Origin: Clostridia bacterium
GTDB lineage: Bacteria > Bacillota > Clostridia > Christensenellales > Aristaeellaceae
Assembly: GCA_017551645.1 (NCBI GenBank)
Contig: JAFZLE010000081.1
Coordinates: 1 to 5,945 of the forward strand
Reading direction: 5' to 3'
DNA: 5,945 bases
The first letter of the stretch is position 1. Every line of letters begins with the position of its first letter. Shown in pieces: positions 2,557 to 5,945 of the stretch. The notes below the pieces were generated by a model that was given only the letters and a program-made list of their open reading frames with translations, did not search any database and was not told where the DNA came from. The position numbers and the translations under genes are program-made.

Positions 2557-2589
2557 AAGTGGACTGCCATGGGGCGGTTCACTTTTTTT
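2557..2589 (+). terminator. Second, tandem intrinsic terminator
   Basis: AAGTGGACTGCC (2557-2568) pairs over 12 bp with GGCGGTTCACTT (2573-2584), including two G-U wobbles, around the loop ATGG. A run of five T residues follows (2585-2589). The reverse strand has no comparable T-tract, so it works on + strand transcripts. It starts about 30 bases after the first terminator and would stop clpC read-through into the mraZ operon. Its T-run overlaps the first DnaA-box match (2586-2594). Confidence 0.85.
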
Positions 2590-2684
2590 ACACAGGTTTT
2601 TCCACAAGCCGGTCCCGGGCGCATGAGATACGACGGCGGTGAAGTGCCCCGCTCTCCCCGGCGCATTTTCCACAAAAATAACGG

Positions 2685-2714
2685 TTTATCCACAAAAGTA
2701 TGCCTGTGGATAAA
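2685..2714. repeat. Perfect inverted repeat made of two DnaA boxes
   Basis: TTTATCCACA (2685-2694) and TGTGGATAAA (2705-2714) are exact reverse complements of 10 bases separated by 10 bases. Each arm contains a perfect 9-base DnaA box. The two sites are 19 bp apart start to start, about two helical turns, so proteins bound to both would lie on roughly the same face of the DNA in opposite orientation. As RNA this would be an AU-rich hairpin; without a following T-tract it does not look like a + strand terminator. Confidence 0.8.
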
Positions 2715-2767
2715 AAAACGCCGTCACATTTAACATAGAATTTACACAAAATTTGCGTTTTACGGAC

Positions 2768-2813
2768 TGGAAATAAATGGAAAGATATTCCATATATGTG
2801 GGATAATGTGGTA
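2768..2813 (+). promoter_or_regulatory. Helically phased TGG repeats, candidate MraZ operator
   Basis: TGGAA occurs at 2768-2772 and 2778-2782, its inverse TTCCA at 2788-2792, TGGGA at 2799-2803 and TGGTA at 2809-2813. The start-to-start steps are 10, 10, 11 and 10 bp. The downstream pair belongs to an 11-base near-duplication, ATGTGGNATAA (2796-2806 and 2806-2816). MraZ is known to bind its own promoter through short direct repeats with a 10-bp period (TGGG-type in E. coli, GTGG-type in related systems). Position, spacing and core sequence fit autoregulation by the mraZ gene immediately downstream. Assignment to MraZ is inferred. Confidence 0.6.
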
Positions 2814-2825
2814 TAATTATCCACA
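2809..2825 (+). promoter_or_regulatory. Extended -10 promoter of the mraZ operon with overlapping DnaA box
   Basis: TATAAT at 2812-2817 is a perfect sigma-A -10 element preceded by TGG (2809-2811), giving the extended TGnTATAAT form. No good -35 is present at the right spacing (TTCCAT at 2788-2793 is the nearest), as is common for extended -10 promoters. The expected start of transcription is about 2823-2825, leaving a leader of some 22 bases with the ribosome-binding site. A second, weaker extended -10 (TGGGATAAT, 2799-2807) lies 10 bp upstream. The perfect DnaA box 2817-2825 begins on the last base of the -10 and covers the likely start point, so bound DnaA would be expected to block RNA polymerase. 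Confidence 0.7.
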
Positions 2826-2846: not shown

Positions 2847-3338
2847 ATGGCGGAATTCAACGGCAGAAGCTTTTTGACGGTGGACTCCAAGGGCAGGCTT
2901 TTTCTTCCACAGGGGTACAGGGATCTGCTTGGGGAAAACTTCGTGATCTCCCTTTCCGAGGACCTTAAGACCCCTGCTTTTTATACTGCCGGGGACTGGG
3001 AGAAAAAGAGCGCCCAGCTCAGGCGGATCCCGCAGACGGACCGCAGGGCGCACGGGCTGCTCAGGATGATCTTCTCATCCACGTTTCCGGCCTACAACAC
3101 CGACGCCCAGGGCCGTGTGCTGATACCGCAGGCGCTTCGTCAGCAGTACGGACTTGGCGAAGGCAGCGAGGCGGTGCTGGCGGGCGTAGGGACCACGCTG
3201 GAGGTCTGGAACGCCGCGGCGTTCAACAACAGCCTTGCCGGGCTTGAAGGCGAAAACGCGGGAGAAGCGCTGGACTACATTTACGACACTTACTTTTCGA
3301 CAGGAATAGACGTTAGCAAAGGGGACGGGGAAGCATGA
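2847..3338 (+). CDS. mraZ: MraZ, transcriptional regulator of the dcw cluster
   Basis: MraZ is a DNA-binding protein built of two SpoVT/AbrB-like beta-barrel halves that assemble into rings and usually represses its own operon. Starting at ATG 2847 the protein has 163 residues. Two half-motifs are clear: VDSKGRLFLP (12-21, DxKGR signature 13-17) and TDAQGRVLIPQALRQQYGL (85-103, DxxGR signature 86-90). It is longer than the usual 140-150 residues because of a C-terminal tail after about 145. It is the first gene after the promoter, and candidate MraZ repeats lie directly upstream. Its TGA overlaps the ATG of the next gene by four bases (ATGA), suggesting coupled translation. The usual next gene, rsmH, is absent. 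The family call is firm; repression of this particular operon is inferred. Confidence 0.93.
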   Translation: MAEFNGRSFLTVDSKGRLFLPQGYRDLLGENFVISLSEDLKTPAFYTAGDWEKKSAQLRRIPQTDRRAHGLLRMIFSSTFPAYNTDAQGRVLIPQALRQQYGLGEGSEAVLAGVGTTLEVWNAAAFNNSLAGLEGENAGEALDYIYDTYFSTGIDVSKGDGEA

Positions 3339-3775
3339 GCCAGAGAAGGATAAACGGTCAGGGTGTTAGGCCGTATGTCTGGAATGACAGTGGCAGGAGT
3401 ACCCGTGCCCGCAGCAATGACAGGATGTCAGCGTCTGCCAGAGCCGCCAGAGAGGCTAAGCTCAGGAAAGAAAAGCAGAGAAGGTTATTCAAGTTTTGCT
3501 CTTTTGCCGTACTGTTCGTGGCGGTAGGCATGTGGTTTGCCCTGGTATGGTCCCAAAGCGCGAGAGCGGACAGGGACCTTGCACTGGCTGCGGAGAGGCG
3601 TCAGCAGTTGAGCGAAACGATAGAGAGAAAGCAGCTGATCCTCGATAACGAGATCTCTAACCGTGTGATCTGCCAGGTGGCGGAAGAAAAGATATACATG
3701 CAGCGCCCCTCGGCGGTGAAAACGGTAAGTATCTATCTGCCCCAACGCGCGGGAAACCAGACGGCCGGGAAGTAA
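3335..3775 (+). CDS. ftsL: FtsL-like bitopic cell-division protein
   Basis: FtsL works at the septum as part of the FtsQLB/DivIB-DivIC complex that activates septal wall synthesis. The 146-residue protein has the expected build: a basic, probably disordered cytoplasmic N-terminus (1-50, rich in Arg and Lys); one transmembrane helix (about 52-73, FKFCSFAVLFVAVGMWFALV); an outside coiled-coil segment (about 77-112, AERRQQLSETIERKQL region); and a short C-terminal domain (about 115-136) with the pattern AEEKIYMQRPSAV typical of FtsL/DivIC proteins. FtsL sequences diverge strongly, so the call rests on topology and on position between mraZ and murE. It could instead be a DivIC-type septum formation initiator. 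It overlaps mraZ by four bases, and GGGGA at 3321-3325 is its likely ribosome-binding site, nine bases upstream. The cytoplasmic tail is fairly long. The transpeptidase gene that normally follows is missing. Confidence 0.78.
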   Translation: MSQRRINGQGVRPYVWNDSGRSTRARSNDRMSASARAAREAKLRKEKQRRLFKFCSFAVLFVAVGMWFALVWSQSARADRDLALAAERRQQLSETIERKQLILDNEISNRVICQVAEEKIYMQRPSAVKTVSIYLPQRAGNQTAGK

Positions 3776-3787: not shown

Positions 3788-5233
3788 ATGAAACTCAAGG
3801 AGCTGGCGGCAGGTCTGCCCTTTCCGTATGAGATAACAGGCGACGAAAATACAGAAATATCCGGCGTATGCACGGACACAAGGAGGCTGACAGAGGGCAG
3901 CCTGTTTGTGTGTGTAAAGGGACTTAAGACCGATTCGCACCTGCTCGCGGGGGATGCCGCCCGGCTGGGCGCTTCCGCGCTGGTGACCGAAAGAAAACTC
4001 GACACGCCCCTGCCGCAGGTACTGGTCAAGTCTACCCGCGAGGCGCTGAGCTACCTTGCCTCCACTTTCTATGGAGATCCTTCGAAAGACCTTAAGCTGG
4101 TGGGCATAACCGGCACAAAGGGCAAGACCACCACATCGTTCCTGCTCAAAAGCATACTGGAAGCCGCGGGCTGCAAAACCGGGCTTATAGGCACCGTGTG
4201 CGTGCTGATAGGCGACAGGGAGTATGAAGCGGGGCTTACCACGCCCGACCCGATAGAATTTCAGAAGATACTTTCCCGCATGAGGGAAGCGGGCATAGAA
4301 TATGTTATAATGGAAGTATCCGCCCACGCGCTGGATATGCACCGCATAGACGGCACGCGCTTTGAGGCGGCGGCGTTCACCAACCTGTCCCAGGACCATC
4401 TTGACTATTTCGGCACTATGGAAAACTATCTTAAAGCCAAGCTCAAGATACTTTCCATGACCGACAGGATGGTCGTGAACGTGGATGACGCCGTGGTGCG
4501 GCAGGCAGTGGACGCGCTGGGAGTGAACTATACCCCCGTTGGGATACGCGAAAAGGCTAATGTGTACGCCAAACAGATAGAGGTCATCGAGACGGGAGTG
4601 CGCTTTCTGCTGACCTTCCACAAGCGTTTCCGGGAAATCATCAATTTGCGCTTAAGCGGCATTTTCAACGTGTATAACGCCATGATCGCAGCCGCGCTGG
4701 CAGACGAGTGCGGTATCGATCCGGAGCATATCAAAGCGGGGCTTGAGGCTATATCAAACGTGCCGGGCAGGGTTGAACTGCTGGATACGCATACTCCCTA
4801 CAGGGTCATACTGGATTACGCCCATTCCCCGGACGCGCTGGAAAACGTACTGAAATCCTTAAGGCAGTCCACCCGCAAAAGGATTATAGCCGTGTTCGGC
4901 TGCGGCGGGGGACGGGACAGGACCAAACGGCCCATCATGGGCGAGATAGGCGGCAGGCTGGCGGATTACTGCGTGATAACCAGCGATAATCCCCGTGACG
5001 AAGATCCAATGGAGATAATCGACGCGATCGAGGCGGGGATCCGCGGGGTCACGCAGAACTATGAGATAATAGAGAACCGCAGGCTGGCCATACGCCGCGC
5101 GCTGTCCATGGCGCAGAGCGGTGATACCGTGGTGCTGGCGGGCAAGGGACACGAGACTTATCAGGAGATAAACGGAGTAAAGCATCCCTTTGACGAAAAG
5201 GAAATAGTAAGAGAACTGCTGAAGGAAATATAA
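3788..5233 (+). CDS. murE: MurE, UDP-MurNAc-L-Ala-D-Glu:meso-DAP ligase
   Basis: MurE is a cytoplasmic Mur ligase that adds the third stem-peptide residue to UDP-MurNAc-L-Ala-D-Glu using ATP. The 481-residue protein shows all three domains: an N-terminal UDP-binding domain (1-100, CTDTRR at 28-33); a central ATPase domain with P-loop GTKGKTTT (109-116), TTPDP (151-155), the EVSAHALD segment (176-183) and YLKAK (214-218), whose K218 is the expected carbamylated lysine; and a C-terminal domain with VPGRVE (325-330), DYAHSPDAL (343-351) and GKGHETYQ (452-459). DNPR at 400-403 is the signature of enzymes specific for meso-diaminopimelate; lysine-adding enzymes carry other residues there, such as DNPA in S. 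aureus. Length and start are typical. It sits 12 bases after ftsL and three before mraY. ftsI and murF, which usually flank it, are missing here. Confidence 0.97.
   Translation: MKLKELAAGLPFPYEITGDENTEISGVCTDTRRLTEGSLFVCVKGLKTDSHLLAGDAARLGASALVTERKLDTPLPQVLVKSTREALSYLASTFYGDPSKDLKLVGITGTKGKTTTSFLLKSILEAAGCKTGLIGTVCVLIGDREYEAGLTTPDPIEFQKILSRMREAGIEYVIMEVSAHALDMHRIDGTRFEAAAFTNLSQDHLDYFGTMENYLKAKLKILSMTDRMVVNVDDAVVRQAVDALGVNYTPVGIREKANVYAKQIEVIETGVRFLLTFHKRFREIINLRLSGIFNVYNAMIAAALADECGIDPEHIKAGLEAISNVPGRVELLDTHTPYRVILDYAHSPDALENVLKSLRQSTRKRIIAVFGCGGGRDRTKRPIMGEIGGRLADYCVITSDNPRDEDPMEIIDAIEAGIRGVTQNYEIIENRRLAIRRALSMAQSGDTVVLAGKGHETYQEINGVKHPFDEKEIVRELLKEI
5222..5226 (+). promoter_or_regulatory. 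Ribosome-binding site of mraY inside the end of murE
   Basis: AAGGA within the last codons of murE lies ten bases before ATG 5237. The gap to the murE stop is only three bases, so translation of mraY is probably helped by ribosomes finishing murE. Confidence 0.55.
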
Positions 5234-5236
5234 ATT

Positions 5237-5945
5237 ATGAAGCTTTTTGCTTTTGCGGCGCTGGCGGCGTTGCTTTGCGCTCTGGGTGCCCAGTACGTGC
5301 TTGAGCCGATCCTGAAAAAACTGTCGGCGAGGCAGACCATAAACGAACTGGGGCCGCAGAATCACAAGTCCAAGCAGGGCGCGCTGACCATGGGCGGCAT
5401 CGGCTTTCTGAGCGTGGGCGCGCTGCTAACTATAGTGTTATCATTGATTTGGAAGGGTAGTATTCCCCTTCCTTTGCTGTATTCTGTAGCGTGCATGCTT
5501 CTGTTCGGAGCGATCGGCTTTTACGACGATTATCTGAAAGTCGTGCGCCGCAGGAGCGTAGGCCTGAGCGCGAGACAGAAAATGCTGCTGCAGATAGGCG
5601 CAGCGCTGATAATGACGCTGATAGGCCTTAAAGTAAACATTTACGGCACAAAGCTCAGCCTGCCCTTTACGGATACGAAGCTGAACAGCGCGTTTGTGTA
5701 CCTGCCGCTCACTCTGTTCGCGTTCGTGGCGGTGGATAATTCCGCTAACCTGCTGGACGGGCTGGACGGTCTGCTCAGCTCAAACGGCGTTATAGTATTT
5801 CTTTCAATGGCGGCTTTTCTGGTCGCGACGGGGAGCAAGACCCAGAACGACGCGCTTATCTCCCTGGGGCTTTTCGCGGTCATCATGGCCTGCGCACTCA
5901 TCGGTTTTCTGGTGTACAACACCAATCCCGCCAGGATGTTCATGG
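5237..5945 (+). CDS. mraY: MraY, phospho-MurNAc-pentapeptide transferase (3' end cut by window)
   Basis: MraY is an integral membrane enzyme that transfers phospho-MurNAc-pentapeptide from UDP to undecaprenyl phosphate, making lipid I. The reading frame is open from ATG 5237 to the right edge (236 codons visible; the family is about 320-360). Hydrophobic segments are seen at about 1-22, 52-72, 80-96, 116-133, 153-168, 184-200 and 208-229. Family motifs: NHKSKQGALTMGG (42-54), corresponding to the usual HxxKxGTPTMGG; FYDDYLKVVRRRSVGLSARQK (95-115) with the catalytic-site DD pair at 97-98; NSANLLDGLDGL (168-179), corresponding to NAVNLTDGLDGL; and NPARMFMG at the right edge, the start of the FMGDTGS motif. 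The two substitutions, GTPT to GALT and NLTDG to NLLDG, are unusual but spare the charged residues. WecA-type paralogs are a weak alternative, less likely given the murE neighbour. The frame has no stop codon before the edge. Confidence 0.93.
   Translation, partial: MKLFAFAALAALLCALGAQYVLEPILKKLSARQTINELGPQNHKSKQGALTMGGIGFLSVGALLTIVLSLIWKGSIPLPLLYSVACMLLFGAIGFYDDYLKVVRRRSVGLSARQKMLLQIGAALIMTLIGLKVNIYGTKLSLPFTDTKLNSAFVYLPLTLFAFVAVDNSANLLDGLDGLLSSNGVIVFLSMAAFLVATGSKTQNDALISLGLFAVIMACALIGFLVYNTNPARMFM

Follow-up and report, generated by a model that had tools for sequence, protein, structure and literature searches.

A lineage-specific array of predicted DnaA boxes upstream of mraZ in Clostridia and its possible role at the division operon promoter

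Clusters of DnaA boxes outside the replication origin are already known, as is DnaA at the ftsL promoter of Bacillus subtilis, the latter through a review (PMC8203912). The B. subtilis clusters outside oriC (upstream of sda/yqeG, ywlC, ywcI/vpr, trmE and yydA, and at gcp-ydiF) consist of near-consensus 9-mers grouped in intergenic DNA away from dnaA, mostly upstream of genes; the array described here is likewise built. Of the genes listed next to these clusters, most seem to be repressed by DnaA (ywlC, vpr and three operons), and sda is activated (PMC4447404). None of the eight strong regions named in that paper is at mraZ; binding was measured there and is predicted here. An earlier note on the present DNA had invoked a B. 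subtilis precedent linking DnaA to ftsL, and the literature bears this out: the ftsL promoter is bound by DnaA in vivo (Goranov 2005, as cited in PMC8203912). In both cases DnaA is linked, here by prediction, to the mraZ–ftsL part of the dcw cluster; the present locus differs in having a dense array upstream of mraZ, and in being lineage-specific. The main text of PMC4447404 mentions neither 'ftsL', 'yllB' nor 'mraZ' and thus describes no dense array at the ftsL promoter. According to PMC11019786, the B. subtilis proteins RsmH and PbpB (ftsL operon) are unchanged when initiation is blocked, with FtsL undetected.

Several Escherichia coli loci also bear comparison. The promoter of mioC, a division-linked gene, likewise carries DnaA boxes, and E. 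coli MraZ binds a site that overlaps one of them (PMC4446571, citing Eraso 2014); this locus differs in lying beside oriC and in having two conserved boxes, and the dcw operon is not involved. DARS1 and DARS2 are also short non-coding clusters of conserved spacing with a plus-minus-minus core order. The core spacing is 14 and 12 at both (core boxes as read from the gaps), compared with 19 and 20 in the matching triple here, and a DARS element was rejected since + 14 − 12 − is not matched by + 19 − 20 −. The datA locus likewise has five DnaA boxes (PMC4585315); datA also needs an IHF site between its boxes. The DnaA boxes upstream of ftsZ are similarly placed beside division genes, but they lie inside ftsQA and are reported not to act on ftsZ (PMC8203912). 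Literature on DnaA with mraZ or ftsL, judged by titles and in a coverage that excludes many subscription journals, held no report of a DnaA array at mraZ.

The window, that is, the whole stretch of 5,945 bp analysed here, is contig C56 of an assembly (G000) of 2,168,408 bases in 397 contigs, 75% complete. It contains exactly six matches to TTWTNCACA (Table 1); 200 dinucleotide shuffles gave a mean of 0.17 and a maximum of 2. All six lie in the 372 bp that separate the clpC stop (2474) from the mraZ ATG (2847), where the earlier note had placed them correctly to the base, and three (boxes 4, 5 and 6) are TTATCCACA. The successive start-to-start distances are 12, 68, 20, 19 and 112. Boxes 1–5 (2586–2713) constitute the array, the first four in the same orientation and the fifth in the opposite one (++++−), and box 6 is set apart. 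Under the definition of a DnaA-box cluster as at least three boxes at a mean distance under 100 bp (PMC7561715), six boxes at these distances form such a cluster.

Table 1. Predicted features of the window (positions in the forward strand)
Feature	Position	Strand	Remarks
clpC, 811 aa	39..2474	+	Pfam Clp_N, AAA, AAA_2, ClpB_D2-small
Intrinsic-terminator-like hairpin	2557..2584	+	12-pair stem, then T-run; T-tail forms part of box 1
DnaA box 1 (predicted), TTTTACACA	2586..2594	+	Pattern match; sister has TTATGCACA
DnaA box 2 (predicted), TTTTCCACA	2598..2606	+	Pattern match; unchanged in sister
DnaA box 3 (predicted), TTTTCCACA	2666..2674	+	Pattern match; unchanged in sister
DnaA box 4 (predicted), TTATCCACA	2686..2694	+	Pattern match; unchanged in sister
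DnaA box 5 (predicted), TTATCCACA, inverted relative to boxes 1–4	2705..2713	-	Pattern match; sister has TTTTCCACA
WalR-like box, TTAACATAGAATTTACA	2730..2746	+	Consensus match
MraZ operator (probable) and extended -10	2768..2817	+	TGG/GTGG repeats, 10-bp period; TATAAT at 2812-2817
DnaA box 6 (predicted), TTATCCACA	2817..2825	+	At -10 / predicted transcription start; sister has TTGTCCACA
mraZ, first gene of the dcw operon	2847..3338	+	Pfam MraZ 6.7e-17; TIGR00242 3.7e-19, below curated cut-off
ftsL-like gene	3335..3775	+	By position only; no Pfam or NCBIfam match
murE	3788..5233	+	Mur ligase domains
mraY, cut by window end	5237..5944	+	Glycos_transf_4

The whole assembly has 123 TTWTNCACA sites (45 + 78), compared with 83 for the backwards pattern, and single sites therefore carry little meaning. 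When sites at most 150 bp apart are linked, one cluster of six (the clpC–mraZ gap), one of three (contig C201) and four pairs are obtained; the Poisson expectation for six sites in 240 bp is about 5e-10 per genome. The density was earlier said to be far beyond chance, and this holds: six boxes against 0.17 expected form the densest cluster among the 123 sites, and the whole-genome scan proposed as a check shows that similar clusters are not common in this genome. The adjoining AT-rich stretch is also real (2714–2816, 31% GC versus 57% for the window); it is the mraZ promoter region, with 26–37% GC in all seven genomes of the genus. The genome encodes a DnaA with ATPase and DNA-binding domains, and the same type of 9-mer is present at its own dnaA gene. 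The clpC–mraZ array lies outside the dnaA–dnaN region (array on C56, dnaA on C77) and, judged by its predicted boxes, fits a non-origin DnaA-box cluster of the B. subtilis kind.

In the sister species (G001), clpC is preceded by ctsR, mcsA-like and mcsB-like genes (CtsR, UVR motif and ATP-gua_Ptrans matches), and MurD-type and FtsA-type genes, the FtsA match being below the family cut-off, follow mraY on the same strand. Among the open reading frames of the window, rsmH and ftsI frames are absent between mraZ and murE; the ftsL-like frame and then murE come directly after mraZ. The run of clpC beside mraZ is found, among the seven genus genomes, only in the window's species and its sister. The gene before mraZ encodes a metallophosphoesterase in G002, G004 and G005 (in G003 by eye) and is another gene in G006.

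The comparison with the sister species, whose MraZ is 88% identical, shows boxes 1–5 in the same order with start-to-start distances of 11, 67, 20 and 19 (12, 68, 20 and 19 in the window). The letters of these boxes are identical at 42 of 45 positions, with two differences in box 1 and one in box 5, whereas the four spacers between them agree at 47 of 92 aligned columns (51%; the longest spacer gives 49% when shuffled). Fourfold-degenerate sites are identical at 186/362 in clpC and 106/213 in murE (50–51% each) and at 49/71 in mraZ (69%). Neutral positions are thus near saturation in two of the three genes and the spacers resemble random sequence, while the boxes are almost unchanged. This single species pair provides good evidence for selection on boxes 1–5. 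Promoter nearness may add to their conservation, because conservation is also high downstream of box 5 as far as the start codon (103 of 138 columns identical). In the sister locus (L045:11225–14875) an L-serine ammonia-lyase gene separates clpC from the array, so the array has stayed with mraZ. A GC-rich hairpin with a T-tail is also seen by eye just before box 1 there.

The array is located just upstream of the WalR-like box, the MraZ-like operator and the extended −10 promoter, and about 100 bp separate the end of its nearest box from the −10, a distance that counts against control of the promoter. The WalR-like box is so named from TTAACA-N5-TTTACA, which we take to be the WalR consensus. 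With at most one mismatch, the box is present upstream of mraZ in 7/7 genus genomes (with the register shifted by 11 bp in G006) and in 1/7 of the reversed-sequence controls; at two mismatches the control rises to 6/7. A wider set that includes the seven gives 13/50 versus 2/50 for the control. The presence of this box upstream of mraZ suggests a WalRK input to the dcw operon. The promoter element reads TGTGGTATAAT in six of the seven genus genomes and ATATGGTATAAT in the seventh, and a simple pattern search found TGG/GTGG repeat pairs in five of them. Box 6 overlaps the last base of the −10 hexamer; the sister's promoter also contains TTTTCCACA, besides its own variant at box 6, and the other five genus genomes have no box at this position.

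Strict boxes in the 450 bp preceding the mraZ match were counted in 52 genomes, the window's own included (two genomes have less than 200 bp of upstream sequence). Two genomes have six boxes, one has two, three have one and 46 have none. All three genomes with at least two boxes (3/52) belong to the genus: the window's species and the sister have six apiece, and G004 has a pair; four of the seven genus genomes have none, and, of the 45 relatives outside the genus, 42 have none and three have one. The G004 pair, TTATCCACAATTTATCCACA, starts 173 bp upstream of the mraZ match, behind the metallophosphoesterase gene; its boxes are 11 bp apart, and G004 has just one other tight direct pair. The genus tree is weakly resolved (support 34–79, except for the window–sister split at 100), which is too weak to call the G004 pair an independent gain. 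The organism, itself uncultured, is related to rumen bacteria: those relatives identified through MraZ that bear names are uncultured Clostridia, and goat abomasum, buffalo rumen and sheep rumen are the sources of several. A class-wide set comprised the best-scoring 90 of 180 genomes with a PF02381 match (180 of 196 genomes), with upstream stretches of up to 720–860 bp ending at or just inside the match, two of them cut by contig ends. In these best 90 of 180 genomes, at least three strict boxes were found in none (0/90); 81 genomes have no strict box, seven have one and two have two, G493 showing a tight pair 12 bp apart. The counts in the 52 genomes and in the best 90 of 180 class-wide genomes indicate that the mraZ array is lineage-specific, and they rule out an ancestral feature of the dcw cluster. 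The earlier note would count it against the DnaA link if relatives that keep mraZ lacked the boxes; most of them do, which goes largely against a general form of the link.

The favoured reading, held tentatively and at a little below even chance, is that the five-box array conserved in the sister binds DnaA cooperatively and lowers or times transcription of the mraZ-led operon when free DnaA is high. DnaA would load on boxes 1–5, and the complex built there, immediately before the dcw promoter, could then reach box 6 on the promoter. The effect on the operon would presumably be negative at high free DnaA, by analogy with the B. subtilis clusters, and repression is the more natural sign because box 6 sits at the −10. 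This complex would, as a by-product, keep DnaA from oriC. The direct link between DnaA and the dcw operon that the earlier note considered plausible survives for this locus, where the array is beyond chance and the boxes look selected in the sister; a DnaA–dcw link common to the relatives is not supported. For the question of how bacteria couple division to replication, a selected-looking DnaA array on a dcw promoter offers a concrete, swappable promoter on which to test such coupling. These proposals draw on predicted binding, metagenome assemblies, one sister species and a weak genus tree.

DnaA-box arrays are also found elsewhere in these genomes. Tight direct TTWTCCACA pairs occur in 47 of 60 genomes, and the backwards pattern gives 3/60. 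A second DnaA-box array of fixed geometry, with a box and an inverted box 66–67 bp apart, is present in all seven genus genomes in several gene neighbourhoods; the copy of the window's genome is at G000:C201:806-924. The same geometry at 65–68 bp is seen in 31 of 308 family genomes (backwards control, 2/308). A 15-base motif, AAACAGACTTTTCCC, lies 43 bp from the central box in five of the seven genus genomes: four match it perfectly, and G002 deviates at one position there but carries a perfect copy at a further array (C50). At this offset G003 and G006 show no clear motif. With one-mismatch boxes included, the second array has three boxes in the window's species, the sister and G002, four in G003 and five in G004–G006; boxes 1 and 3 have been lost in the window's species and its sister. 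Its neighbours are an MgtE-type gene and a rhamnulokinase-like gene in the sister (tested) and the window's species (by eye), a rhamnulokinase-type gene and murJ in G002, tsaD in G003, a sigma factor gene and a nucleotidyltransferase gene in G004 and a Clp_N-domain gene in G005. In G007, of another genus, a box cluster is located between tsaD and a rhaB-like kinase gene. Given the neighbours in G000–G003 and G007, tsaD/rhaB may be the old place of the second array, with moves in some species. One of the eight strong DnaA regions of B. subtilis lies downstream of gcp (PMC4447404), which is tsaD by family names, and the arrays at tsaD in G003 and at tsaD/rhaB-like genes in G007 resemble it in this respect. 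The second array is a candidate for a partly mobile replication-control element. The mraZ array and the second array are not simple duplicates, because their box orders differ (++++− at 12, 68, 20, 19 versus +++−+ at 16–17, 53–54, 13, 18), and a copy of the one from the other was rejected on this ground.

Since the fixed-geometry array sits at other genes, arrays in the genus need not serve the neighbouring promoter. It is possible, at well under even chance, that the mraZ array is a DnaA reservoir that titrates DnaA from oriC, as six B. subtilis clusters do together, and that its place beside mraZ is irrelevant to the operon. Joint deletion of those six leads to early initiation (PMC5295017), and the presence of the second array in all seven genus genomes in varied neighbourhoods points the same way; moreover, only three boxes of the second array are left in the window's species and its sister, a loss for which the mraZ array could make up. 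However, G002 also has a three-box second array without an mraZ array, though with another array elsewhere (C50), and four of the seven second arrays are still by rhaB or tsaD, implying limited mobility. Elsewhere, the same review states that no B. subtilis cluster has been identified as having a significant role in initiation control (PMC5295017). In two species whose upstream genes differ, the mraZ array remains beside the promoter, a third (G004) has a box pair at the same promoter, and box 6 at the −10 is not needed for titration. The titration locus that the earlier note listed as an alternative is thus favoured by the similar arrays at other genes in the genus, and at this locus it is inseparable from promoter control; the two are mutually compatible. 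Natural material for telling them apart comes from the genus-wide arrays, whose fixed geometry recurs in several neighbourhoods.

An extended version of promoter control, which we consider unlikely, would have DnaA wired into the dcw promoter, with the species' largest non-origin DnaA reserve now located there instead of in the dwindling genus-wide array. One assembly, perhaps competing with MraZ for the same 9-mers, would report replication status to mraZ–ftsL–murE–mraY beside the WalR-like input, and replication would thus be coupled to division at a single promoter.

The 9-mers alone are no proof of DnaA, because the E. coli MraZ site overlaps a DnaA box at mioC, and the same report gives weight to a reading in which the distal boxes extend the MraZ operator. 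Read on the minus strand, they give TGTGG(A/T)AA, and MraZ would be the main ligand or compete with DnaA; the MraZ-like unit resembles an inverted DnaA box, and boxes 3 and 4 yield two GTGG copies at a distance of 20 bp, or two periods of the 10-bp direct repeats at 2768–2817. Such an operator is improbable: the remaining spacings of 12, 68 and 19 and the inverted box 5 misfit a 10-bp tandem array, the four genus members without distal boxes all keep mraZ, and these 9-mers are also found at dnaA and in arrays remote from mraZ.

Conservation for some other reason, such as hairpins, or boxes devoid of function, is very doubtful. Boxes 4 and 5 do form a perfect 10-bp inverted repeat (2685–2694 / 2705–2714) that is also scored as a minus-strand terminator-like hairpin. 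The change of box 5 in the sister from TTATCCACA to TTTTCCACA breaks the perfect pairing and keeps a DnaA box, on which ground a pure hairpin was rejected, and boxes 2 and 3 are outside any such structure.

A displaced origin, as raised earlier, or a second one, for which a box cluster adjoining an AT-rich stretch would speak, is hardly credible and was rejected: C77 carries dnaA, boxes near it and, behind the gene, a dnaN-like frame (52% identity to the beta-clamp gene of G004 across 64 residues), and the array is on C56; the GC skew, proposed as a check, changes sign neither in the window (0.000 to 0.186) nor in 40 kb of the sister contig holding the array (negative throughout); and a simple pattern of our own found no DnaA-trio-like run of four triplets in the gap (2475–2846).

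Box triples of the mraZ type (spacing of about 20 and 14–18 bp) were found at 13 places in 12 of 308 family genomes, the window and the sister included. In G023 (L208) and G129 (L209) such triples lie just upstream of dnaA, and in G306 (L217, tested), G308 and G309 (both by eye) just behind a RecF-type frame; no mraZ was seen by eye at the other triple loci that were read. DnaA-box arrays also occur next to an N-acetylmuramoyl-alanine amidase gene of the cwlD type in three genera: at L190, L191, L193, L194 and L195 (five of the seven loci read of one other genus), L179 and L146. The amidase domain was found for L190, L195, L179 and L146; the CwlD model match of L191 is below the cut-off, and L193 and L194 were assigned by eye. 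A DnaA-box pair at G005:C30 (L054), 42277–42306, lies in an apparent mobile element with an integrase-like frame (by eye).
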